Source: an uncultured Fibrobacter sp. (lineage in GTDB: Bacteria > Fibrobacterota > Fibrobacteria > Fibrobacterales > Fibrobacteraceae). Taken from it: DNA of 51,399 nucleotides. Below are positions 6,540 through 47,187 of the stretch, one piece after another. The DNA is taken from assembly GCF_947305105.1 (NCBI RefSeq), contig NZ_CAMZCS010000024.1, positions 1-51,399 on the forward strand. Reading direction: 5' to 3'. The position numbers and the translations under genes are program-made. How positions within the stretch are numbered: the first letter of the stretch is position 1; each line of letters opens with the position of its first letter. The notes beneath the pieces were generated by a model. It made no database searches. It was given only the letters and a program-made list of their open reading frames with translations, and was not told the DNA's origin.

Positions 6540-6543
6540 TGAA

Positions 6544-8031: not shown

Positions 8032-8033
8032 AG

Positions 8034-8075
8034 ATTCTAGCCTCTAGCCTCTAACCTCTAACCTCTAACCTACAG
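8034..8075. repeat. 7-base tandem repeat array between nspC and tsaE
   Basis: Six consecutive heptamers: ATTCTAG, CCTCTAG, CCTCTAA three times, and CCTACAG. The array fills the spacer and runs a few bases into the end of nspC. It is one of at least six arrays of the same period in this window. Confidence 0.85.
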
Positions 8076-9327: not shown

Positions 9328-10326
9328 ATGATTTGGTCTTCTTATACTCGAATAATCGCATCTATTTGTACGATAGCTTTTGCCGGGTTCGCCTTCGCAG
9401 CGGATCCTGCTTCGGCTCCTGCTCCTGCAAAGGCTGCACCTGCCGCAACAGCTCCTGCTCCGGCCCCCGCTCCCGCACCTGCTCCGGCTCCTGCCGCTGC
9501 ACCTGCTCCCGCTCCTGCTAAGGAAGCTCCTAAGGCTGCTTCCGCTCCCGCTCCGGCCCCCGCAAAGGCGGCCCCTGCTCCGGCTCCGGCCAAGGAAGCC
9601 CCGAAGGCTGCTCCTGCCAAGAAGGCCGAACAGAAGGTCGTACCGAGTGTGCCGGTCAACGTCGCTCCGAGAGGCGCTTCTTCTCTTGACGAGATGATCC
9701 AGAAGAAGCTCGACTCCCTCAGCAAGATTAAAGTCAGCACTCCGGTTTCTGGCAGCTCCGATAGCCTTGCCAAGGTCAAGGCGGACAGCGTCCGCAAGAT
9801 GATCCAGGAAGGCAAGTACGTCCAGCGTGCCAAGTACGACAAGTCGAACTTCGATTCCTGGAAGATCGATACTGTTTTCCAGAAGAGCATGAAGGAATCC
9901 GTTTATGGTATCTGGCGCACTCCGATTGTCGCTCACGGCCACGCTTTCCGTGACGCCGAACTGCGCTTCGACATGAACGACACGGTTTATGGAACGACCC
10001 GCACTTACTCTGATTCGGGCCGCTACCAGATGACTGGTGAATACACCTTCAAGGCTCGCTACCGTTTCGACAACGACACCTCCATGGTCACCCGCGAAGT
10101 CTTCGCCGACCGCCAGGTTGTCCGTTGGGACTACATCGCGTTCCGCAAACTCGAGGACACCTTGACCTACAACCTCAAGAAACTCGAATTCCGCGACATG
10201 AACGACAACTGGTTGAATGCCCTGCAGGGCTTCGACAATGTTCCGCCGGAAGTCTACATCAAGGACGAGAAACTTACCGCCGAGATGAAGAAGACTGCGG
10301 AACTCTGGGCGAAGAGAAAAAAATAA
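9328..10326 (+). CDS. exported protein with Ala/Pro-rich linker, unknown function
   Basis: 332 residues from ATG 9328. Earlier in-frame starts would add a poor N-terminus and lie upstream of the likely promoter. A signal peptide is clear (IIASICTIAFAGFAFA, cleavage near residue 24). Residues of about 25-105 are a low-complexity Ala/Pro linker with occasional Lys, comparable to cell-wall-spanning linkers such as that of TonB. The remaining 220 or so residues form a Tyr/Arg-rich, probably beta-rich domain (GIWRTPIVAHGHAF, GRYQMTGEYTFKARYRF) that I do not recognise. It ends 6 bases before the FecCD-type permease, so it may be the first gene of that transport operon. Confidence 0.82.
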   Translation: MIWSSYTRIIASICTIAFAGFAFAADPASAPAPAKAAPAATAPAPAPAPAPAPAPAAAPAPAPAKEAPKAASAPAPAPAKAAPAPAPAKEAPKAAPAKKAEQKVVPSVPVNVAPRGASSLDEMIQKKLDSLSKIKVSTPVSGSSDSLAKVKADSVRKMIQEGKYVQRAKYDKSNFDSWKIDTVFQKSMKESVYGIWRTPIVAHGHAFRDAELRFDMNDTVYGTTRTYSDSGRYQMTGEYTFKARYRFDNDTSMVTREVFADRQVVRWDYIAFRKLEDTLTYNLKKLEFRDMNDNWLNALQGFDNVPPEVYIKDEKLTAEMKKTAELWAKRKK

Positions 10327-24576: not shown

Positions 24577-24593
24577 ATTGAGAAAGATAGTTA

Positions 24594-24628
24594 TAGACGA
24601 TAGGCGAGAGACGAAAGACGAGAGGGAA
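24594..24628. repeat. 7-base tandem repeat array between the radical SAM gene and the TM2 gene
   Basis: Five consecutive heptamers: TAGACGA, TAGGCGA, GAGACGA, AAGACGA, GAGGGAA. The array lies between divergent genes, where the upstream promoter region of the radical SAM gene should be. Confidence 0.78.
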
Positions 24629-29156: not shown

Positions 29157-32100
29157 ATGAATTTTCTATATCGAATTCTCCCGCTAGTTCTCATTGTCAC
29201 CCCTCTATCGTTTGCTGCAGGAGAAACCTCGCAGGCTTCGTCTAAAGCTAGCGCGCCTGCCCCGGCGGCGACTCCGGCTCCTGCGCCAGCGCCTGCTCCG
29301 GCTCCGGCACCTGCTCCGGCTCCGGTTGCGGCCCCAGCCCCAGCTCCCGCCCCGGCACCAGCTCCCGCTGCGGCATCTGCTCCGGCCCCTAAGCAAACGG
29401 CAGCTCCGGCTCCGGCAACGGAAAATGTGGCAAAGAAGGTGAAAGACGAAGAACCGGTTGACGATATAGATGCTCTTTCTGGCGATACGCTCCCTGTCGT
29501 GAACGGAACGCCGCTTTCGGGCTCTGTTTCAGGCTTCTTGAGCAAAGACAAGTCCCCGTACCTCATTAGCGATTCCCTGATTGTCGGCGAAGGCCAGGCC
29601 CTCGTCATCCAGCCGGGTGTTATTATTGCTTTCAAACCGGGAGCTATCCTCGATATTCGTGGAGGCTCCCTTGCTGTTGCTGGTGAAGAGAAGTCTCCGG
29701 TGATTTTCCGCCCATTCAACAAGATGGGCCACTGGGGCGGTATCCGCATTGCTGGCCCCATGCAGGCGGACTTCAAGAACGTATTTATCCGCAATGCCGT
29801 CAATGCCGTGTCGGTGGAAAATGGAACTCTTACAGTCCAGAATGCCGTTATTGACAAACCGCTCGAAACGGGTGTTTACGCCCGCGCTGCGAAGGTGACC
29901 CTCCAGAATTCTATCATGACGAACGCCTTGGGCGTTGGTTTCTGGGCTGCCGACAAGTCGACTCTCCGCTTGGACAATGTCCGTGTCAACGGCAACAAGG
30001 TCGGCCTTGTGGCCGAATCGAATGCCGAAGTCCGGCTTAATACCTCTACCTTCGGCTCCAACGAGGTCGCTGTCTTGAACATGGGCGACAACAATGTCAC
30101 CGAGACGGGTTCGTCCATCACGGGGAACAATTTTGGCGTCGTCTCTACCGAATTCCCGGTGAAATTCAAGAATGCCATTAGCTATAACGAAGAAGATGCC
30201 GCTTCCAATGCGAGAAAGCTGCATTCCACCTTGCCCAAGGAACCGAAAAACCCCAATGCGGGTGGCTATCGTGCAAACGAGCCGGTCCTTGACGATATCG
30301 ACCCCGATGCTCGCTGGAAAATGTCCGGTAACGTGGTTTCCGATGTGGGATACCACCTCGTGCGTACCCGCCACAATCATACGGGTGCCGATTTCTATAG
30401 TGGCGTGAGGGATACGGTCAAGAATGGCGACCGCTACGTCAACTACTTCCAGACGCCTGGATTCTTTACGAATTTGAGCGCCTACATGTTGATGGAATCT
30501 CCGTGGGGCAGTTCCTTGGAACTCACTGTGGACCTCTCGAGCGATTCCTGGAACAGTTTCAATCCCCATACCTTGCAGGCTATTTATACGGACCCGTTCC
30601 AGAAATTGGCTTTGGGTAATATATACCTCTCCGGTGGGAACACCTACCTCGAAGGTATTGATGTGCTCGGTGGTTCTTATGACTTGAAGATTTTGCACAA
30701 CCGTGCCGGTGACCCGCTCTTTGTCGTGACCGGCTTTGCGGGTGAAACTCGTAACCCGCTGAAAGAAGGCGATAGAAATCCGGATATCTACAAGGATTAT
30801 GTCGAGGTGGGCGAGGCTGAATCCCAGGAAATGGTCGCTGGCGGTATGGTCCGCTGGAACATGCATCCGCAATTCTCCGGGCTTCTCGGCTTTATGGGCA
30901 GCAAGGACTATATTGAAGACCCGTTCCTCCGCGACGGCATGAGCGAAAATACGTTGCTTGCCACTCCGCGCCGCAGTTCGCAGACCGCCTTTGCCGAGGG
31001 TAGCTGGATTGCTTATCCGGGTAACATGGAATTCCACGGCAACCTCGCTATCGGTGCCGCCGATACGTCGAACGCCCGTTCTATCCGCGCTGTGAACCAG
31101 GTGTTCTCCAATGCGGGCGTGAGCACTTCCAATTATAACCTGCTCAACCGCTTGATGAAGGACCCGGGTGTCGTCTCTCGCATGAGCGAAAAGGAACTCG
31201 TGGCCATCTTTGGCGACAACACGATGATGACGACTTCGCAGATGAGGGCTGAACTGAAGCGCCTGCTCGAAGAGGCGAAGAGGGTTCGCAATCAGTATGC
31301 CTCGAATGGTTACGAAAATGACCGCCTTTCTGACTGGAACGGCAAAAATGCCGCTTTCGGTGCCGATTTCCGCTGGACATACCATAAGTCCGAACTGAGC
31401 GCCTACCTCCGTGCTGTCGGTCCTGAATTCTACAGTGCCGGTTCTCCGGATCAGATCCAGAACTCCCGTGAGTTCGGTGCTTTCTTCAAGCAGGGATTCT
31501 CCGACTTCTGGACATTGACGATGACTTATGACGTGGATGTCGAAAATGCCGGTAACGGCAACCAGTACAACGCCTTCGGTTTCAACGAGGGTACGACTTG
31601 GGGCTTGTTCAACGAAGCTCCGGATAGCTGGCTCGAGGAACACGAAATGGATGAAAACCGCGCCATCAACACTCAGGATGCGAGCGCCAAGAACCTCATC
31701 AATATCGGTTCTTATGTGGACTTGACTCTCGGTTATGCGTTGAACTACAGAAGCCACCATCGCCCGACTCGCCTCTATGCCGATTTCGACAAGGCTTCGG
31801 GTGTCTATGAAGACAGTTGGTTCAAGGCTAGAGGAAAATCGACCCTCAAGGTCAACGATTCCCTGGAAATCGATTCTGCCCGCTGGGCTCAGTACTATTC
31901 TCATGTCCAGGATGAATACCTGGCTGCGGACTTTACCGAAAAACTGCTGAAACAGTCCGTCCAGGTGAATTTCGACATCAAGATGCCGTACAATGTGCTG
32001 AGCCTTGGCTGGATTCTCACGTTCCGCAACGATCTTTCTGAATTCGACGACGACAAGGCCATGGACGAATTCGACTTTAGCGACGAGACTTACGGCCTTC

Positions 32101-32544: not shown

Positions 32545-35500
32545 ATGAAAAACGTTAATAAATACAAGAAAAAGACAATATTTAATCGCATTTTGGCCAT
32601 TTTTCCATTTGCGTTGTGTGCTGCGGGCTATTCGTATGCAGATTCGGTTACGGATGCTATTCCAGAAAAAGCTTGCACGTTTTTTATAGACGATGTTATT
32701 GATTGGGACAGGCTGCGTAGTGATATTACAACACACTCTTCTTTCGATTGCCCTGTTATTGCCGTCAAAATTTCCGGGACACTCCATTTCTCCGATGTCT
32801 CTTCTATGCCTAAGCAGTCGGCATTTCCTACAATTGACGTGCAAATTGATTTGCAAAAACGTGACCTCTACATTTACGGAGACCCGAATTCAAGCAAGAA
32901 TGTCATTGAGGGTGTTGTGCTGAAAGGTAGGGAGACGTCGCTTTTTACGAATCTTGGTAATATTCTCTATGTTGACGGTGTTGATATTGAAAACAGTTTC
33001 ATACTTCCTCAAGCAGAAAGAAAGCTTCCTCGTAACGTCGGTTTCTTTGCTGATACAGTGAAGAATGCCTATTTCAAGAATGTGAATCTGAAAAATGTCG
33101 GTATGAGGGGACTTTTAGATTCCACGAATTCACTATCGACGTTCAATGATGTGGGATTCCTTGTGGGTGTCGTCGAAAGAACGGCTGAGGTGACTCACGT
33201 CTCTGTAGATGGTCTTCAGATTTTCGATATGTATGTCTCTAATATGGGCAGTCTTTTCGGGCGTGCTAAATGGAGCGTTTCTGCGGATGATTGCCAATTG
33301 TCTAATATTGCTTTGACGGGATCGTTGATGCCCGGTAATTCTAAAGATGTTATCTCGATGTCTGCGTTTGGTGGCCTTGTGGGTTCACAAGATATAAGCG
33401 CCGGATTGTTTACGGTGAACAATACATCGATAGATGCGGACATTTCTCTCGTGGGCCAAGGTTTTGAAAAATTTGCCTATGCCGCTGGTGTTGCTGGTTA
33501 TGTGATGGCCAATGTTGCTGACATTGAGCGCGTTTCTGTTTCTGGAAACATTAATGTGCAGAACTCTAGCACGTCTGCAATGACGAAGGCTTCGACGATT
33601 AGAGCTGCAGGCATTTTCGCTTATTGGAATTCCCGAAATCTGAATTCTAGATTGAATTTTGAAAAAATACAGTCCTCGGTGGATTTTTCTGTGGATTTGT
33701 CAAATTATGAGCAGACTGTCATTACGAAGCCGAGCAGTGTCTCCGCAGTTATCAACCAATCTGCTGTAGGTGGACTTGTTGGATATGTCGCATTCTCGGA
33801 CAAAAATCAGATCAATGTCATTGAATCTGAATTTTCGGGATCTATAAATTATCAGTCTGGCGACTTAGGATATCCTGGGCTTGGTGGAATTATCGGCGTA
33901 TATAAAAATACAAGTGCTGACGAGTCGCCATTAACGTTCTCTGATGTAAAAGTGAATGGAGATGGAGCTATACAGTATGATGGCACTGGCTATGCAAGCG
34001 TCGGAAATCTCATGGGTGTTGCTGTGAATGCTTCGATTCGCGCAAGTGAAAGTGTTTTTGAAAAAGACATCCATGTGACGCTTTCTGGAGATGAAGGGGA
34101 CATTGATGGCGCTTCTGTTGGTGGCGTTATCGGTACTGCAATCCAAGCTCCTGTGAAATTCATCGATGTCTCTGTCAAAAGCGATTTGTTCGTTGACGAC
34201 AATATGAAAAATGCAGACATGTCTGCCGATAGACTGGATTTGTCCATAGGCGGTGCTGTTGGTTATGCTGAAGAATCTTCATTGAAATTGGATGTAGATT
34301 ATTTGGGAACGATTTCGGTTACTCGCGACAATTCTGGATCGACAAAAGAAAAAGCCTCAAAACAATATGTTGGTGGCCTTGTCGGTAAAATTTATGGCAC
34401 CAACGATGCGGAGTCTGCACCCGAAGTCGTTATCTTGAATTCTAGTGCTGTCGGCAAGAATGGAACATTGATATCGACTGTTTTCAAAGGAAATAAAAAC
34501 TACAGCTCCTTCATGACGGGTGGGTTAATCGGTGGCTCTGTTCTTAGAACAAAGTCTATTCGAATCGAAAAAACCTTTGTCACTGGGGATATCACTGCGC
34601 AAGACATGAAGCATGATGGCATTTCTTACATGTCGGGTATGCTAGGCTTTATTTTGGTGAATGGGAATGTTGATATCATGAATTCCTACTACCATGGCGC
34701 AATGGTTACGTCGGTGGATCCTGGTTGGCCTGATGATGTTGAGCTTAGTGTAAATTACTACCCAGTTGCATCGTTTGGTATGATTGATGACCTCACGCTA
34801 AGCAATGTGTATGTGTGCGAAACGAATAGCATGGCCTCTTCTGGATCGCTTTATTCGGCTGGTGCGTACACTAAAGTGAATCTTGAAAATGCTCTTGCAT
34901 TTAGCAATGAAAATTATGTAACAAATAAGATGGCGATGAATTCTCCTGCATTTGCATACAGCCTCAACGAAAATCTGGAAGAACCCCTTTGGTTCTATGA
35001 TATGAATAGTAACGGCGGACTTCCGCAATTGAGCCTGGCTGCAAGCGATCCTAAGCCAACCCAGAAGGTGACCTTGGCTGGTTTTGACGTAAGCGGAGAC
35101 GAGGCGTCTGATGTCGTCATTTATACCAATAGTGATGGCAAATGGGAACTCAAGGGGGACGGTCGTCGCTTCAACGACAATGACTTGGATGTCGCCATTT
35201 ACGATCCTACAACGAAAAAGCTCGTATTCTGGAAGCAGCAAGGTGGCGATCTGGAATGGAAGGGCCTCTCTGAAATGGGGAGTGTTCTTGCTGATGGCAT
35301 GGTATTCGAGAAGCAGGTCGTTGATGTCCCCAAGGTGTCGTTTGGCGTGGATACAACTGTCGAAAGTGGAAACCGCATTTGGTTCTGGGACAATTCCGAA
35401 TACAGCATGGTTGACGATGAAAAGTTGCCTGATGCCGTATTTGAAATCGTGTTTAACGGAGTGTCGACGATTTACAAGGGCGCCTATTGGACGGTTCCTG

Positions 35501-37644
35501 GGAAAAATGTCGTGTTCACTTCTTCGGCGCAACTCATTGATTATGTCTCTCACAATCTGCCAGAAGATGGAAACCTGAAGTTAGAATTCGCTTTTGACGC
35601 CATAAGCGCACTTATGTTCAAGAAAACGAATAATGCTTCGCTTACTCTTGAGGAAGAGAATCTCTGGAAATCTCTGGAATCTCAGAGATTCGAAACGACT
35701 GTGGTGTTCTCAAATACCTCGGGCGTGTTGGCTCGCTATACTTCGGCCGGGCACGAGAGGATTGGTGCTGTTACAATAAAGGGTGGAAATTCTGCGCTAT
35801 TGCCGAAGGTTGACAAGTTCGCAATTATCGATGTCTTGGATGGAGATTCTTCTTCGTTCTCCTTTGTCATCAGCAAGACCGGTGGTGAAGTGCTCCGTTC
35901 TGAATATCTGTATGGAGAAGATCTTGATTTGTCCACGCTTCTCTCGGACGGTGACCAACTGATGATTTATCGGATGGGACGCATATATCATGTGCCGACA
36001 GGGCCGGATTCCGTGATTGTTGTGGATTCTACAGGAAAGCCCTCTATCGTGACTGTTGATTCGACTGGAACCTCGGTGATTGTGCCTATAGAGCCGCCGG
36101 AAGATATTGTTCCTGATCTTCCGCCTGTTGTCGACCATTCCGACGAATGTGCTGACAGTGTCTCGATTTCCGATGCCAGTGTGATCAAGTCGGGTACCGC
36201 AGCGTTGTTCTCCTTCAAGATGGATGCTCCGAAATTCTGCGATTCGCTCCTGAATCCGCATGTGATTGTCTCGGGTGCAGATGGAATCGTGAAGGACTCT
36301 GCGTTCGCATTTAGCCGCAAGACTCGTGAGTTCATGATTTATCCGCTCGATCCGGGTGAGTACACCTTCAAGATCAAGGCTTCTTCGAAGAAGAGCAAGT
36401 CTGTCAAGCAGGAATTCTCTGCCGATATCGAAATCCGCGGCCGCGTGTGGAACATGGTGGCTTACGGTTCTTGGCCGAAGAACGTTCTGAAGAACGCCAA
36501 GCCGACGATTTATTCTTGGAACGAGTCGAACGCGATTGGCGACTACTGGCAGTACGAAGCTTTGCCCAAGAATGCCAAGGCCGTCGAGACGGTTGGTTAC
36601 TGGGTCCGTACCGAATCCAACGTGGAATTCAGCCTGGATTTGCCGCTGAAGAAGGCCGAATCCGATTCCCTGAGCTGGACTGTCGAGAAGTCGTTCAGTG
36701 GTTGGAATATGCTTGCTAACCCGTACTCCTGGAACCTGTATGTCGGTTCTGTGGATGGATTCAAGTCTCCGGAAGACGAAACATCCCCGATTTGGCACTG
36801 GAATAACATCACCGCAAGGTATGATATTATCGATACCTTGTTGGCGAACGAAGCGTTCTGGATCCAGGTGGATCGCAAGAGCACGATCAGCATTAGTTCG
36901 AAGCCGGTGTTCCCGGCGGTCAAGGCAAACTCCGCGGCCAAGAAGTCTTCGCTCCTCAAGAGTGCAACGAAGGATTCCTGGAGTATGATGCTTGTTGCTA
37001 CTACGGAAGACGGCGCTGCCGATTCCTGGAACGTACTCGGCGTGGGCTCCAAGAACATCGCGATTGCCGAACCGCCTGCCGGTATGGAAAGTGCTGTTGG
37101 CGTGTCGTTCGTGGGTGAAGACAATGCCATGCTCGCCAAGCGCATCTTGGCCAAGGCCTCCAGTGAAGAATACACCTGGAAGGTCCAGCTGAACGCCTCC
37201 AAGAGCGGGAAGGTGAACCTTGCTCTCGAAGGCCTGGACGAAGTTCGGGCCATGGGCTACGAAGTCTCTCTCGTCATGGATGGAAAGACTTACGAATGGA
37301 ACGACAATTCCTCGATGGACGTGAATGTCTCGGGTTCCAAGACGGCCGAATTGAAGGTCGTTCCGGCGGGCAAGAAGATTGCCGCAGCCAAGGGAATTGG
37401 CAATGTGCATTACGATGTGGTTGCTGGCGGGATTGCCGTGCAGTTTGACGTGTCGGCCGGAATGGCCGGCCAGAAGGCCTCTGTGCGCCTCCTCGACGTG
37501 AACGGCAACGTGGTCTCGACGGTCTACGGGAATGCCCGTTCCGGCACGAACGACTTCCGCTTGGCCGCCCCGGCTCGCAGCGGCGTGTATGTTTTGCAGG
37601 TCCGCGTGGACCGCGAGTCCCGTGTGGCTCGTCTGTCCCTCTAA
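32545..37644 (+). CDS. giant exported protein with GLUG-type repeats and T9SS-like C-terminal sorting domain
   Basis: 1699 residues. ATG 32545 is preceded by GGGGAG. A signal peptide ends near YSYAD (residue 33). Residues of about 90-700 form a beta-solenoid with at least seven GG(L/I/V)(V/I)G motifs of the GLUG type ([28 protein letters not shown] and others). The middle has bacterial-Ig-like and Ser/Thr-Val linker segments ([12 protein letters not shown]). The last 80 or so residues match a type A T9SS sorting domain ([12 protein letters not shown], then [12 protein letters not shown] and final basic ARLSL). It is predicted to pass the outer membrane by T9SS and stay on the surface. The 5' half is more AT-rich and less codon-biased than the 3' end, which suggests a mosaic origin. 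Confidence 0.88.
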
Positions 37645-41505: not shown

Positions 41506-41907
41506 ATGCTCAAGAAAATTTTTATCGCTATTCTCGCAGCGGCCGCGTTCGCGCTGGCGGCTGATCCAGTCACTATCGAAGGCCGCCTGACCGAAATCCC
41601 GGGCAAGATGCCGAGCAACGACTTGTACAGCTACGTGTACGTGTTCAAGTACAAGGTGTTGAAGGTCGTCTCTGGCAAGCTCGATGCCAAGGAAGTGCTG
41701 GTGGGCGTTTACAACCCGCTCATTGCACGCGGCAAGGTCAAAGACAAGATGGCCGACAAGAGCAAGGGCAACGTGGGCGAGTTCAAGGCGAAGGCCAAGC
41801 ACACGCTCAAGATTGTGCCGCTCGAGGGAAACTGGGACGGAGCCGTCGAAGACGAATACTTTGACGACGAATCCCCGCGCTATCTGGCCATAGAGGTGAA
41901 CGAGTAA
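41506..41907 (+). CDS. small exported protein of unknown function
   Basis: 133 residues from ATG 41506; the longer in-frame ORF from 41461 starts inside the terminator stem. The signal peptide ends near ALAAD (residue 19). The mature part is beta-rich, with many Val, Lys and Tyr (YVYVFKYKVLKVVSGK, then ITTL-like strands) and an acidic C-terminus. Not recognised. It is separated from the MBOAT gene only by a hairpin-forming repeat array and may belong to the same cluster. Confidence 0.8.
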   Translation: MLKKIFIAILAAAAFALAADPVTIEGRLTEIPGKMPSNDLYSYVYVFKYKVLKVVSGKLDAKEVLVGVYNPLIARGKVKDKMADKSKGNVGEFKAKAKHTLKIVPLEGNWDGAVEDEYFDDESPRYLAIEVNE

Positions 41908-41910
41908 TCG

Positions 41911-42006
41911 GTAAACAGTGGTTAGTAAACAGTGGTTAGTAAATAGGGCGGCTTCGCCGCGATTATAAATCCTAACCACCAACCACTAATCACCAACCAC
42001 TAGCTT
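41911..42006. repeat. inverted pair of 7-base repeat arrays forming a long hairpin
   Basis: Left arm: GTAAACA, GTGGTTA, GTAAACA, GTGGTTA, GTAAATA. Centre: GCGGC-TTC-GCCGC. Right arm: CTAACCA, CCAACCA, CTAATCA, CCAACCA, CTAGCTT. The right arm is the imperfect reverse complement of the left, so nearly the whole spacer could fold into one stem. It fills the gap between the exported protein and the MBOAT start with no ordinary ribosome-binding site. Confidence 0.82.
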
Positions 42007-43425
42007 ATGGTTTTTTCTTCCCAGATATTCCTGTTCTACTTTTTGCCGACGTTCTTGGTTGGCTATTTTGTGCTGTTCCGTGCCGGGGTCAAGCATTCCG
42101 GCTTGAACTTCTTCATCACTGTTTTCAGTTACATTTTTTACGGCTGGCTCGAACCGTGGCTCGTGTTCCTGATGTTCGGCTCGACGCTCGTGGTGTACGT
42201 GAGCGGGCGGTTCATCTCGGCTCCGGGGGCGAGCAAGCGGCAGCGTAACCTGGCGCTCCTCGCGGCGATTGTCGTGAACCTCGGTGCGCTCGGGTTCTTC
42301 AAGTACTACATGTTCGGCATGGGTGTCATCAACGATGTGGTAGCGAAGCTCGGTTGCGAACCGTTCTCGGTGATGACGGTGCTCTTGCCGGTGGGCATCT
42401 CGTTCTATACGTTCCAGTCCATGAGCTATGCGATTGACGTGTGGCGCGGTACGGCTCCTCCGGTCAAGGACTTCGTGACGTTCGCCTGCTACGTAGCGCT
42501 TTTCCCGCAACTTGTCGCGGGCCCGATTGTGCGCTACAATACGGTGGCCGAGGAACTCGCAACCCGCACGCATACGCTCGAGAACTTCGTGCGCGGCATC
42601 ATGTTCTTCAGTTTCGGCTTTGCCGAAAAGATTTTCCTTGCGAACCAGGTGGGCATCATCGCCGACCGCGTGTTTGCGGCAGACGCCCCCGGCGTGTTGA
42701 ACTGCTGGTGGGGTAGCCTTGCCTACATGTTCCAGATTTACTTCGACTTCTCGGCGTACAGCAACATGGCGATTGGCCTTGGCCTGATGCTCGGGTTCCA
42801 TTTCCCGCGCAACTTCAACGGCCCGTACCGTTCGGGGAGCATTACCGAATTCTGGAAGCGCTGGCATATTTCTCTCACGAGCTGGTTCCGTGATTACCTC
42901 TACATTGCGCTCGGCGGAAACCGTGTGGGCAAGAAACGCCTGTACTTTAATTTGTTCATGGTCATGTTCTTGAGCGGCGTGTGGCACGGCGCGAACTGGA
43001 CGTTCGTTTGCTGGGGCCTGTACCATGCCTTCTTCATGATTCTGGAACGTGCAAACAACAAGAACGCGCTCTACTACAAGGCGCCCCGCGTGGTGCAGAT
43101 TCTCATTACGCAGGTGATTGTGCTGTTTGGCTGGGTGCTGTTCCGTGCCGATAACATTGGCGAGGCGTGGCGCATGTGGAAATCGATGCTCGGGCTTATG
43201 CCGGTAAGTGGCGCCGATGCCATCCTGACTGCCGAGATCTTCACGCCGACGTGTGTGGTGTTCATGGCGGTGGCGGGCCTGCTTTCGTTCTGGAAGTTCC
43301 GCAGTTTCGACTGGTGTAACGAGGTGAAATTCTGGAAGGCGGTGGTCGCCCTCGGGCTCTTTGTGCTCGCGACGCTTGCGCTATTTACCCAGAGCTACAA
43401 CCCGTTCCTTTATTTCCAGTTCTAG
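42007..43425 (+). CDS. MBOAT-family O-acyltransferase (AlgI/DltB-like)
   Basis: 472 residues with ten or so membrane helices. MBOAT proteins pass acyl (usually acetyl) groups across the inner membrane for transfer to polysaccharides or teichoic acids. Seen: SQIFLFYFLPTF at the start as in AlgI, LPVGISFYTFQSMSYAIDVW, FPQLVAGPIVRY, FWKRWHISLTSWFRDYLY and the catalytic His327 in GVWHGANWTF. The usual partner, a periplasmic SGNH/AlgJ/AlgX-type transferase, is not next to it. Instead an outer-membrane-type protein and a lipoprotein follow. The start is ATG 42007 at the end of the repeat hairpin. Confidence 0.95.
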   Translation: MVFSSQIFLFYFLPTFLVGYFVLFRAGVKHSGLNFFITVFSYIFYGWLEPWLVFLMFGSTLVVYVSGRFISAPGASKRQRNLALLAAIVVNLGALGFFKYYMFGMGVINDVVAKLGCEPFSVMTVLLPVGISFYTFQSMSYAIDVWRGTAPPVKDFVTFACYVALFPQLVAGPIVRYNTVAEELATRTHTLENFVRGIMFFSFGFAEKIFLANQVGIIADRVFAADAPGVLNCWWGSLAYMFQIYFDFSAYSNMAIGLGLMLGFHFPRNFNGPYRSGSITEFWKRWHISLTSWFRDYLYIALGGNRVGKKRLYFNLFMVMFLSGVWHGANWTFVCWGLYHAFFMILERANNKNALYYKAPRVVQILITQVIVLFGWVLFRADNIGEAWRMWKSMLGLMPVSGADAILTAEIFTPTCVVFMAVAGLLSFWKFRSFDWCNEVKFWKAVVALGLFVLATLALFTQSYNPFLYFQF

Positions 43426-45181: not shown

Positions 45182-45859
45182 CTACTTTATGCTCCAATCG
45201 ATGGGTTCGAGGCCCTTGTTTTGCAGATAAGCGTTCGCTTTGCTGAAGTGCCTGCAGCCGAAGAACCCACGGTATGCCGATAGCGGGCTGGGGTGCGGGG
45301 CCGTGAGGATGAGGTGGCCGCGGCCGGGCGCTATCAGGGATTGCTTCTTGATGGCGAAGCTGCCCCAGAGCAGGAATACGAGGTTTTCGCGGACTTGCGA
45401 GAGCCTCTGGATGATGGTGTCGGTGAATTGCTGCCAGCCGATGCCTGCATGGCTTGCCGCCATGTGGGCGCGCACGGTGAGGGACGCATTGAGGAGCAAC
45501 ACTCCTTGCTGTGCCCAGCATTCTAGGTTGCCATGGGGCGGGGGCGTGATGCCGAGATCGTCGTGGAGTTCCTGGAAAATGTTGATAAGCGATGGCGGCG
45601 GCTCGATGCCGACGGGGACAGAAAAACAGAGCCCGTGTGCCTGGCCTGGATTGTGGTAGGGGTCCTGGCCGATGATGACCGCCTTCACCTTGTCGACAGG
45701 GCAGAAGTCGAGTGCTGCAAAAATTTTGGAGCCGGGAGGGTAGACAACGTGGTGCTCCGCTTTTTCTTTTAGGAGGACTTCCTTGATTTTTTTGAAGTAG
45801 GGTTGCTCGAATTGGTCTTGCAGGAGGTCGAGCCAGGATTGTTCAAGTTTGACGGACAT
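45182..45859 (-). CDS. ung: uracil-DNA glycosylase
   Basis: 225 residues, normal length for family 1 UDG. Removes uracil from DNA. Seen: catalytic GQDPYHNPGQAHGLCFSV, LLLNASLTVR and the DNA-intercalating HPSPLSAYRGF. The spacer before the gene is a 7-base repeat array that reaches into the upstream methyltransferase gene, and no good ribosome-binding site is visible. Confidence 0.97.
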   Translation of the reverse strand: MSVKLEQSWLDLLQDQFEQPYFKKIKEVLLKEKAEHHVVYPPGSKIFAALDFCPVDKVKAVIIGQDPYHNPGQAHGLCFSVPVGIEPPPSLINIFQELHDDLGITPPPHGNLECWAQQGVLLLNASLTVRAHMAASHAGIGWQQFTDTIIQRLSQVRENLVFLLWGSFAIKKQSLIAPGRGHLILTAPHPSPLSAYRGFFGCRHFSKANAYLQNKGLEPIDWSIK

Positions 45860-45867
45860 GGGGAATA

Positions 45868-45909
45868 GTGGTTGGTAAACAGTGGTTAGTGGTTAGAGGC
45901 TGGAGGCTC
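45868..45909. repeat. 7-base tandem repeat array overlapping the end of the methyltransferase gene
   Basis: Six consecutive heptamers: GTGGTTG, GTAAACA, GTGGTTA, GTGGTTA, GAGGCTG, GAGGCTC. The units GTAAACA and GTGGTTA are identical to those at 41911-41938. The part beyond 45886 lies inside the methyltransferase reading frame. Confidence 0.82.
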
Positions 45910-47187
45910 GGGCCTTGCCAGTATTGCGATTTTTTCACCGTAGGCGCGGGTGTAGAAGAGTATGGCGGATTCTTTGCCCTTGGGTTTGAGCCGTGCGATT
46001 TCGGCGTCGGGGTCGAGTTTGACTCCGCGGAGCTTTATCGTGAGGCGGCCTACATTGTGCGCCCTGAGCATGTTGCGGACGGCGCTGGTGGAAATGTCGG
46101 TGCGGTCGACGACTTCGTAGCAGGAAAATCCGGGCGAGGGGAGGGGCGTATCGCTAGATACGTAGGCGATGCCTTCGGAGATGAGGTGGGCTACGGGGTC
46201 GTGGGCCAGCGCCGCGATTCCGAAAAGGCGGCTGCGCACGAGGACCGCGGCGGGTTCCGAGATGTACTTGGATAGTTCGCCGAGAGGGAGGTCCGACTGG
46301 CTGCTTGCGGTGCGGTAGACTCTGTCGCGACCTTCCATTTGCAGGTTTTCGTCGAAATGGCGCTGTTCAGCTTCGTCGCGGGTCTCGCGTGCAGCATCGC
46401 GGGGGGCTTCCCATTGGGCGATGGCATTGCCCTCTTTGTCGACGATGACGGCGCGGACGGTGCCCGGGGCACGGGCGAGTTCGCCGAAGAGGACGAGGCA
46501 TTCGCGACAGTCGGAATGCTTGCCGATGTAGAGAATTTCGGTGTCGTGGGGAATTTCGCCAACGGGGTAGCCGGGCGGGAGTTTCGCCATGCCGCCCTTG
46601 TAGTGCTTCGCGATGTCGAGGACTTCGGCAAAGGTGGGCGAGAGGTTGTTCAGGTCGCGCTGGTTGTCGCCCTCGTCCGTGCGCCGGGCCGGGTCGATGG
46701 TGAAGTAGTCGGCGGGGGATTTGGCAAAGGCTTCCTTGACATCGGCCAGGACGGCTTCGCCGTCGCCGCGCATCACGCATGCGTTATGGCTGTACATGGT
46801 GATGCGGTCTTCGTCCAGGTCTACTCCGGTGACCTTGAGTTCGCGCGGCAGGAAAAAGCTGTCCCCGCCCATGCCGCAGCATAGGTCGTGTACGCTTTTT
46901 CCTCTGGCCTCCTCGCCGTTTGGCCAGAGAGTCGCCTTGTAGCGGCCGATGTCCTGGGCGGTGCTCTGTTCCAGGGCGAGCTTGTCGCACAGGAGGAACG
47001 CTTTGCTTGCCCCGAACTTTTCGCGGAATTTGGGCACGAGCGCCATGTAGTCCATGATGGCGGCGCGCTCGTCGAAACTGTACTTTTTGGCGAGTGCGCT
47101 TGATACCTGCAACTTGTCCATTTTTTTCGCAAGGGCGCCTTGGATGAACTCCTGCACGGCAGTCGATGTCAGCAATTCCTTTAGCAT
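45886..47187 (-). CDS. class I SAM-dependent methyltransferase with THUMP-like C-terminal domain
   Basis: 433 residues from ATG 47187. The N-terminal 90 residues are helical. The SAM-binding motif DLCCGMGGDSFFLP and the following VTGVDLDEDR mark a class I methyltransferase, and TIDPARR is the acceptor-side motif IV. The C-terminal part (YEVVDRTDISTSAVRNML, VGRLTIKLRGVKLDP) fits the THUMP-like domain usually fused to this group. Members probably modify RNA, but the target is unknown. The last seven residues (EPPASNH) are encoded by the repeat array, so the natural C-terminus has been replaced or extended by repeat DNA. Confidence 0.85.
   Translation of the reverse strand: MLKELLTSTAVQEFIQGALAKKMDKLQVSSALAKKYSFDERAAIMDYMALVPKFREKFGASKAFLLCDKLALEQSTAQDIGRYKATLWPNGEEARGKSVHDLCCGMGGDSFFLPRELKVTGVDLDEDRITMYSHNACVMRGDGEAVLADVKEAFAKSPADYFTIDPARRTDEGDNQRDLNNLSPTFAEVLDIAKHYKGGMAKLPPGYPVGEIPHDTEILYIGKHSDCRECLVLFGELARAPGTVRAVIVDKEGNAIAQWEAPRDAARETRDEAEQRHFDENLQMEGRDRVYRTASSQSDLPLGELSKYISEPAAVLVRSRLFGIAALAHDPVAHLISEGIAYVSSDTPLPSPGFSCYEVVDRTDISTSAVRNMLRAHNVGRLTIKLRGVKLDPDAEIARLKPKGKESAILFYTRAYGEKIAILARPEPPASNH

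Follow-up and report, generated by a model that had tools for sequence, protein, structure and literature searches.

A heptamer-armed hairpin before an MBOAT-family gene is one copy of a dispersed repeat family in Fibrobacter

The window analyzed here, a stretch of 51,399 nucleotides from an uncultured Fibrobacter sp. (contig NZ_CAMZCS010000024.1), contains an MBOAT-family gene separated by 99 nt (41908-42006) from an upstream ORF for which no Pfam match was found (Table 1). This gap corresponds to an inverted pair of heptamer arrays flanking a GC hairpin, and arms and core occupy it entirely except for 3-4 nt at each end, in agreement with an earlier note on this DNA that described one hairpin spanning the whole gap. 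The core of the window copy reads GGCGGC-TTC-GCCGCGATTATAA, and Tandem Repeats Finder assigns a period of 14 to both arms, its call for the left arm being 41911-41943. The arms are imperfect inverted copies of each other, since AAAC and GGTT take turns in the left arm and face AACC/AATC, with the result that in the mRNA good pairing would be achieved by every other heptamer only.

The earlier note also pointed out that an ordinary ribosome-binding site is absent before the MBOAT gene. No Shine-Dalgarno-like word was indeed found before its ATG, yet this absence is ordinary in this genome: in a sample of 451 kb (400 kb of the same genome plus the window) such a word is lacking in 176 of 248 array-free genes, being present in 72/248 compared with 28/248 (complementary words) and 27/208 in two controls. 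Moreover, units like those of the left arm recur without a partner arm, as had been noticed before, in the 26-nt gap between the ORFs 45182-45859(-) and 45886-47187(-), and extend into the end of the latter; in the relative G008, this gap holds an unrelated insert of 107 nt. Elsewhere in the window, Pro/Ala-rich coding-like repeats (period 6/18/24) lie near the starts of two genes (9400-9600 and 29270-29390) and vary in length between species, and a very large ORF of 1699 aa (32545-37644), in contrast to its well-conserved neighbors, has relatives that are only 28-38% identical, in 5 of 60 other genomes of the genus (first 318 aa).

Table 1. Heptamer arrays, core and flanking genes in the window
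Feature	Position	Strand	Remarks
CTCTAGC/CTCTAAC heptamer array filling a short gap	8032..8069	-	G008 orthologue 14 nt (two units) longer
AGACGAA/AGACGAG heptamer array	24593..24624	+	same family as MBOAT-gap inserts in other species
Upstream ORF, 148 aa	41461..41907	+	stop TAA at 41905-41907 abuts the element
Left heptamer arm, AAACAGT/GGTTAGT units, top strand G-rich	41911..41946	+	period 14
Conserved core GGCGGC-TTC-GCCGC-GATTATAA: 5-bp GC stem, 3-nt loop, AT-rich octamer	41947..41968	+	
Right heptamer arm, AACCACC/AACCACT/AATCACC units, top strand C-rich	41969..42002	+	
MBOAT-family gene, 472 aa	42007..43425	+	PF03062, E 1.6e-25; directly downstream, ATG at 42007
Lone heptamer units like the left arm, no partner arm	45867..45896	+	in the 26-nt gap between two (-) ORFs

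A DNA search of the genome to which the window belongs recovered, besides the window copy, five near-full copies (at least 77 of 93 bases) and one partial copy (59 of 93), and in the other family members, too, an arm of the window's left-arm type precedes the core. The core, searched as GGCGGCnnnGCCGCGATTATAA / GGCGGCNNNGCCGCGATTATAA with one mismatch allowed, is present in 40 of 61 Fibrobacter genomes, with 0 matches in reversed-pattern controls. Phylum-wide, it was found in 55 of 167 genomes, and outside the genus in 3 of 87, in each case as a single one-mismatch match. The loop of the core is free to vary, and the stem and GATTATAA are nearly fixed, much of this being imposed by the search pattern itself. 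The 92 loci fetched represent 90 distinct elements and 56 independent sites, grouped by similarity of at least one flank. The search of related genomes proposed in the earlier note thus yields further copies with inverted arms, and the hairpin belongs to a dispersed family whose core is largely confined to Fibrobacter; no match was found in the phages and plasmids searched. A second recurrent core, composed of two GC hairpins (AGAATCACGCAC...GTGCGTCAATATAAGACGGCG...CCGTGATATTT) inside inverted heptamer arms of the CTAG type, occurs in G000 (C1:51812-52120, C1:138390-138618 and C6:17569-17985), and gaps of this kind can also hold dispersed palindromic repeats of other types (GTCATCCTGAG..., GTCATTGCGAAG...; L023, L029, L071; G000 C1:200987-201330).

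At least nine arm families surround the core (AGTGGTT, AGTAGGA, ATTATGA, TCATTGG, TTAGGTA, GATTGAT, TGAGCTA, AGACGAA and CTAGATT), in addition to unclassified arms. A universal code of heptamers beginning with AG was considered and dropped once the TCATTGG and ATTATGA families appeared. In 72 non-redundant elements, a left arm folded with its own right arm gives -22.8 kcal/mol versus -15.5 kcal/mol with swapped partners, a difference matched by 0 of 10,000 permutations. Within a family this advantage is gone, permutations being at least as good in 1542 of 5000 cases for AGTGGTT and 3156 of 5000 for AGTAGGA, which indicates that arms are matched by family and not by fine compensation. Also, chimeric elements mix arm families (L244, L224 and L184). 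For example, L244 has a left arm of TCATTGG type and a right arm of AGTAGGA type, and the left arm of L225, grouped with L244 by its flank, is of AGTGGTT/AGTAGAC type.

Of the 89 elements that could be placed with a coding-score gene caller, 78 are in co-directional gaps, 10 in convergent gaps and 1 in a divergent gap; for the 56 independent sites, the corresponding figures are 28 ++, 17 --, 9 convergent and 1 divergent, with 1 undetermined. In the own-genome sample, 187 gaps measure at least 60 nt and 49 of them are divergent, and against this baseline, which comes from one genome whereas the elements come from many, elements are depleted in divergent gaps (1 of 55 sites; p 1e-6 versus gaps of at least 60 nt and p 0.0016 versus all gaps). 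This depletion is not shared by arrays in general, 5 of the 25 array-bearing gaps of the sample being divergent. Nearly all sites of the family have at least one gene reading into them, and most lie in the interval from a stop codon to the following start codon.

The elements also have a definite polarity, with a G-rich arm before the core and a C-rich arm after it in 71 of 78 co-directional elements, the reverse in 0 and a mixed arrangement in 7, and the matching rule is kept by 29 of 33 single arrays at gap edges in the own-genome sample. Because an inverted pair looks identical from either strand, G-first polarity is a rule of the element rather than of the transcribed strand, and a meaning in terms of the transcription strand was rejected on this ground. 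Relative to transcription, the core runs one way at 28 sites and the opposite way at 17, and its direction varies with the arm family, being 19:3 for AGTGGTT and AGTAGGA together and 9:14 for the others (Fisher 0.0018). A TATAAT on the opposite strand of the core was considered as a promoter and set aside, since core direction differs between arm families.

One proposal of the earlier note was a transcript-stabilizing element or an attenuator. A rival reading along these lines is a functional mRNA hairpin, which would stabilize the upstream message, act as an attenuator or mark a processing site and be under selection for its RNA structure. The RNA fold of 41895-42020 reaches -35.7 kcal/mol, compared with -24.8 +/- 3.4 for shuffled sequences (z -3.24, 0 of 200 as good), so the folding check that the note had suggested comes out in favor of a real hairpin. 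The same holds over the 56 sites, with a mean z of -3.86 (-3.03 for the arms alone), and both the avoidance of divergent gaps and the dependence of core direction on arm family are consistent with an RNA function. Nonetheless, a hairpin selected in the mRNA should fold at least as well in the sense strand, and the opposite is observed: at co-directional sites the sense strand is weaker than the antisense (mean -30.8 versus -35.1), antisense being better in 31 of 45 and sense in 13 of 45 (p 0.0017), and for the gap in the window the values are -31.0 and -50.0, respectively. If core and anti-core strands are compared over the 56 sites, the bias is weaker, the anti-core strand being better in 37 and the core strand in 18 (p 0.025). 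The lack of a pairing advantage for own arms within a family also speaks against this reading. At the variable pair, where G.U was compared with A.C, 2 A.C were found against 3.1 expected in 17 pairs, a difference that points neither way. In addition, the stem is followed by GATTATAAAT and not by the U tract that an intrinsic terminator carries after its GC hairpin, the core is found in both directions relative to genes, and the three weak matches obtained with Rfam 15 are all far below the gathering scores, with no family assigned. We take the weak folding in the sense strand as tolerance of a weak hairpin before the start codon, not as selection for a strong one. The stabilizer or attenuator proposal is then unsupported, and an mRNA hairpin under selection seems unlikely to us.

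The junction before the MBOAT gene was read in 44 rows including the window, a few gaps being trimmed to the true stop by script. It is empty in 21 rows (3 nt in most, up to 24 nt) and filled in 23, with inserts of 82-256 nt. The insert types comprise AGTGGTT (window), AGACGAA, TGAGGTC, TCATTGG, ATTATGAAGTACGA, TTAGAAC, TTAGGTA and TTATGAG, in addition to a composite, two further types and a GTCATCCTGAG repeat. The gene tree of the 44 rows requires at least 19 changes among 12 states, with 9 changes between empty and filled. Within the clade of 16 rows to which the window belongs, 6 rows are empty, with GCC or GCT as linker, and the other 10 show 8 different contents; even the rows nearest to the window, at most 94% identical over the two flanking genes, carry inserts different from its own. 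Moreover, the same core type is found between different arms in four inserts (window, L066, L076 and L087, the last of these with another GC stem). The AGACGAA element at this junction (L018, L068, L074, L078, L083, L088 and L092) is longer, 176-256 nt, with a conserved interior, two GC hairpins inside it, a TAATGGCGC motif and 8-bp ends TTAGACGA...TCGTCTAA, and it may be the most MITE-like member.

A second junction, read in 30 loci, precedes a gene that, from the look of its protein, we take to be an oppB-like permease. Its empty form is TAA|ATG, with 0 nt, and at least seven filled types are observed: AGTGGTT, AGACGAA, TAGTTAC, GGAATTC, TGAGGTC, TTAGAGC and AGTAGGA. Both variable junctions were picked because they are occupied in this genome. 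A control junction of 4 nt (6540-6543) was compared in 29 loci whose upstream gene is comparable and carries an insert in 0 of them, which argues that insertion is not general to short junctions. Also, in the 33 junctions shared with G008, the one relative used for the synteny comparison (G034, G033, G029, G046 and G060 are not syntenic beyond a few genes), most gaps are of equal length and a few of the differences are due to arrays, two window arrays showing length changes of 14 nt and 7 nt. At orthologous junctions, copies of the dispersed family are missing or have given way to other contents, a turnover that is confined to some junctions.

Occupation of the MBOAT junction goes along with a change in the downstream start codon. 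In the main clade of 35 rows, the gene starts with ATG in 22 of 22 filled rows and with GTG in 11 of 13 empty rows (Fisher 1.9e-7), and the five informative independent pairs all shift in the same direction (5 to 0, p 0.0625). A filled gap would break the translational coupling of the two genes through the stop-3nt-GTG arrangement, and the downstream gene would then lean on its own ATG, a stronger start. The shift could be a mechanical by-product of insertion. A hairpin that loops out and holds stop and start together for coupled translation was also considered and is disfavored by the shift from GTG to ATG.

Regarding the origin of the arms, 27 imperfect period-7 arrays are present in the 451-kb sample and 0 in shuffled sequences, with each of the periods 5, 6 and 8-11 yielding 0 to 5 arrays. 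These arrays belong to families such as AGTGGTT, AGTAGGA, CTAGCCT, TCTCGTC, AACTGAT/AACTCAT (in this genome at C1:126125-126282) and TGAGCTA, among others, several of which make inverted pairs around GC hairpins. The array pattern GGTTAGTAAACAGTGGTTAGT, with 2 mismatches, has 39 matches in the own genome and is present in 45 of 61 Fibrobacter genomes, the reversed pattern in 0. Arrays are mostly intergenic, only 3 of 37 falling inside called genes (coding-score gene caller, lower array threshold), and tandem 7-nt intergenic units that change length by whole units correspond to heptamer simple sequence repeats of the STRR or long-SSR type. Passive slippage could be proposed, with STRR-type arrays expanding through replication slippage where selection permits and inverted pairs arising accidentally or through a strand switch at a GC hairpin. 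The dominance of period 7, the enrichment of multiples of 7 among indels of at least 4 nt in orthologous arms (19 of 52) and the many arrays without a core agree with it. However, the 22-nt core is common to genomes with different arms, the same few heptamer vocabularies appear at unrelated loci, and different whole elements occupy one junction between flanking genes up to 94% identical to those of the window. These observations require copying from elsewhere and not in-place slippage alone, and we consider slippage very unlikely as the full explanation.

MITEs and REP sequences are short, dispersed, palindromic, intergenic and non-coding, features that the Fibrobacter element has in common with them. 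The attC site of integrons, a hairpin with conserved R' and R'' boxes at its base and an integrase as partner, was considered solely on account of the position and shape of the Fibrobacter hairpin. A small non-autonomous element of MITE type was the nearest of the three guesses of the earlier note. What stands of it is that near-identical copies are dispersed and that orthologous sites are empty, as in MITEs, and the AGACGAA form moreover has terminal inverted repeats, TTAGACGA...TCGTCTAA. On the contrary, no target-site duplication was seen by eye at the two junctions inspected (MBOAT and permease), few sites having been considered; at the latter, TAA|ATG becomes TAA-GTAAAC...CACTACT-ATG. With regard to a mover, neither of the enzyme families searched, Y1_Tnp and RVT_1, has a match in the own genome, where 39 array matches exist, so that the partner Y1 transposase of a REP/RAYT system is missing there. 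Y1_Tnp is present in 20 and RVT_1 in 16 of 61 genomes, neither correlates with array or core counts among these genomes, and 17 of the 40 core-bearing genomes are without both. Also, the arms come from many unrelated sequence families that are exchangeable and can be mixed in one element, unlike fixed terminal repeats. Movement in trans of a MITE or REP-like element by a transposase is accordingly a doubtful explanation.

Heptamer arrays have been described in other bacteria. In Xanthomonas, GGGAATC heptamers form intergenic arrays, nearly two hundred per genome, mostly between co-directional ORFs and in 7-8% of cases between divergent ORFs, and 70 and 75 cases of two nearby arrays in convergent orientation are given in the cited part of that work (PMC4692102). 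The inverted array pairs, the preference for co-directional gaps and the rarity of divergent ones resemble the situation in Fibrobacter. Nonetheless, the Xanthomonas arrays belong to one sequence family of G-quadruplex type and to another phylum, and a conserved core between arms is not described in the portion of the source referred to here (PMC4692102). In the P6b stem of the Nostoc trnL intron, both strands of the hairpin are made of 7-nt repeats, and the NNTGAGT class has been repeatedly replaced by TDNGATT (PMC4476775). This is, as in Fibrobacter, a heptamer-built hairpin with class replacement at a fixed place, although it lies inside a group I intron and not at an operon junction, has two classes only, and, in the sections cited, no GC-hairpin core with GATTATAA (PMC4476775). 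The TAACTGA heptamers of Beggiatoaceae, Cyanobacteria and Bacteroidetes are intergenic and frequently sit immediately ahead of a start codon, in most cases with no ribosome-binding site. Their position before start codons is shared with the Fibrobacter arrays, which in this genome include the AACTGAT/AACTCAT type, but according to the excerpt considered they are almost only direct repeats, with one inverted case in that genome and no hairpin (PMC4679880). Inverted heptamer pairs are known from Xanthomonas and Nostoc, and the Fibrobacter architecture is real and recurrent. In the literature searched, mainly at the level of titles, no description was found of the Fibrobacter family, of the conserved core or of whole-element turnover at a stop-start junction.

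On balance, we lean toward a Fibrobacter-specific family of dispersed intercistronic repeats, in which a core formed by the GC hairpin and GATTATAA between inverted heptamer arrays inserts at operon junctions, exchanges its arms and breaks coupling. In each copy the G-rich strand lies 5' of the core, and the copy would arrive through insertion into an operon junction. Its arms would lengthen, shorten and be exchanged in 7-base steps as the numerous arrays of the genome recombine and slip, and the host would retain the least harmful copies. A bolder proposal, which we regard as rather unlikely, is that some operon junctions are true insertion targets of a mobile hairpin of a new type, directed at the stop/start boundary, whose two arms are rewritten together from the genome-wide heptamer stock as the core is kept, its identity being a matter of architecture and not of sequence.

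Heptamer arrays occur widely among bacteria, and why they have seven bases, how they spread and what their role is still lack an explanation. Fibrobacter, a gut bacterium, offers a clean system for these questions, because at the same orthologous junction some species have an empty gap of 0-3 nt and others carry unrelated heptamer hairpins, and because a genus-restricted core marks the elements, which obey strict rules of polarity and gene context. How the elements spread and what they cost coupled genes can therefore be tested directly.
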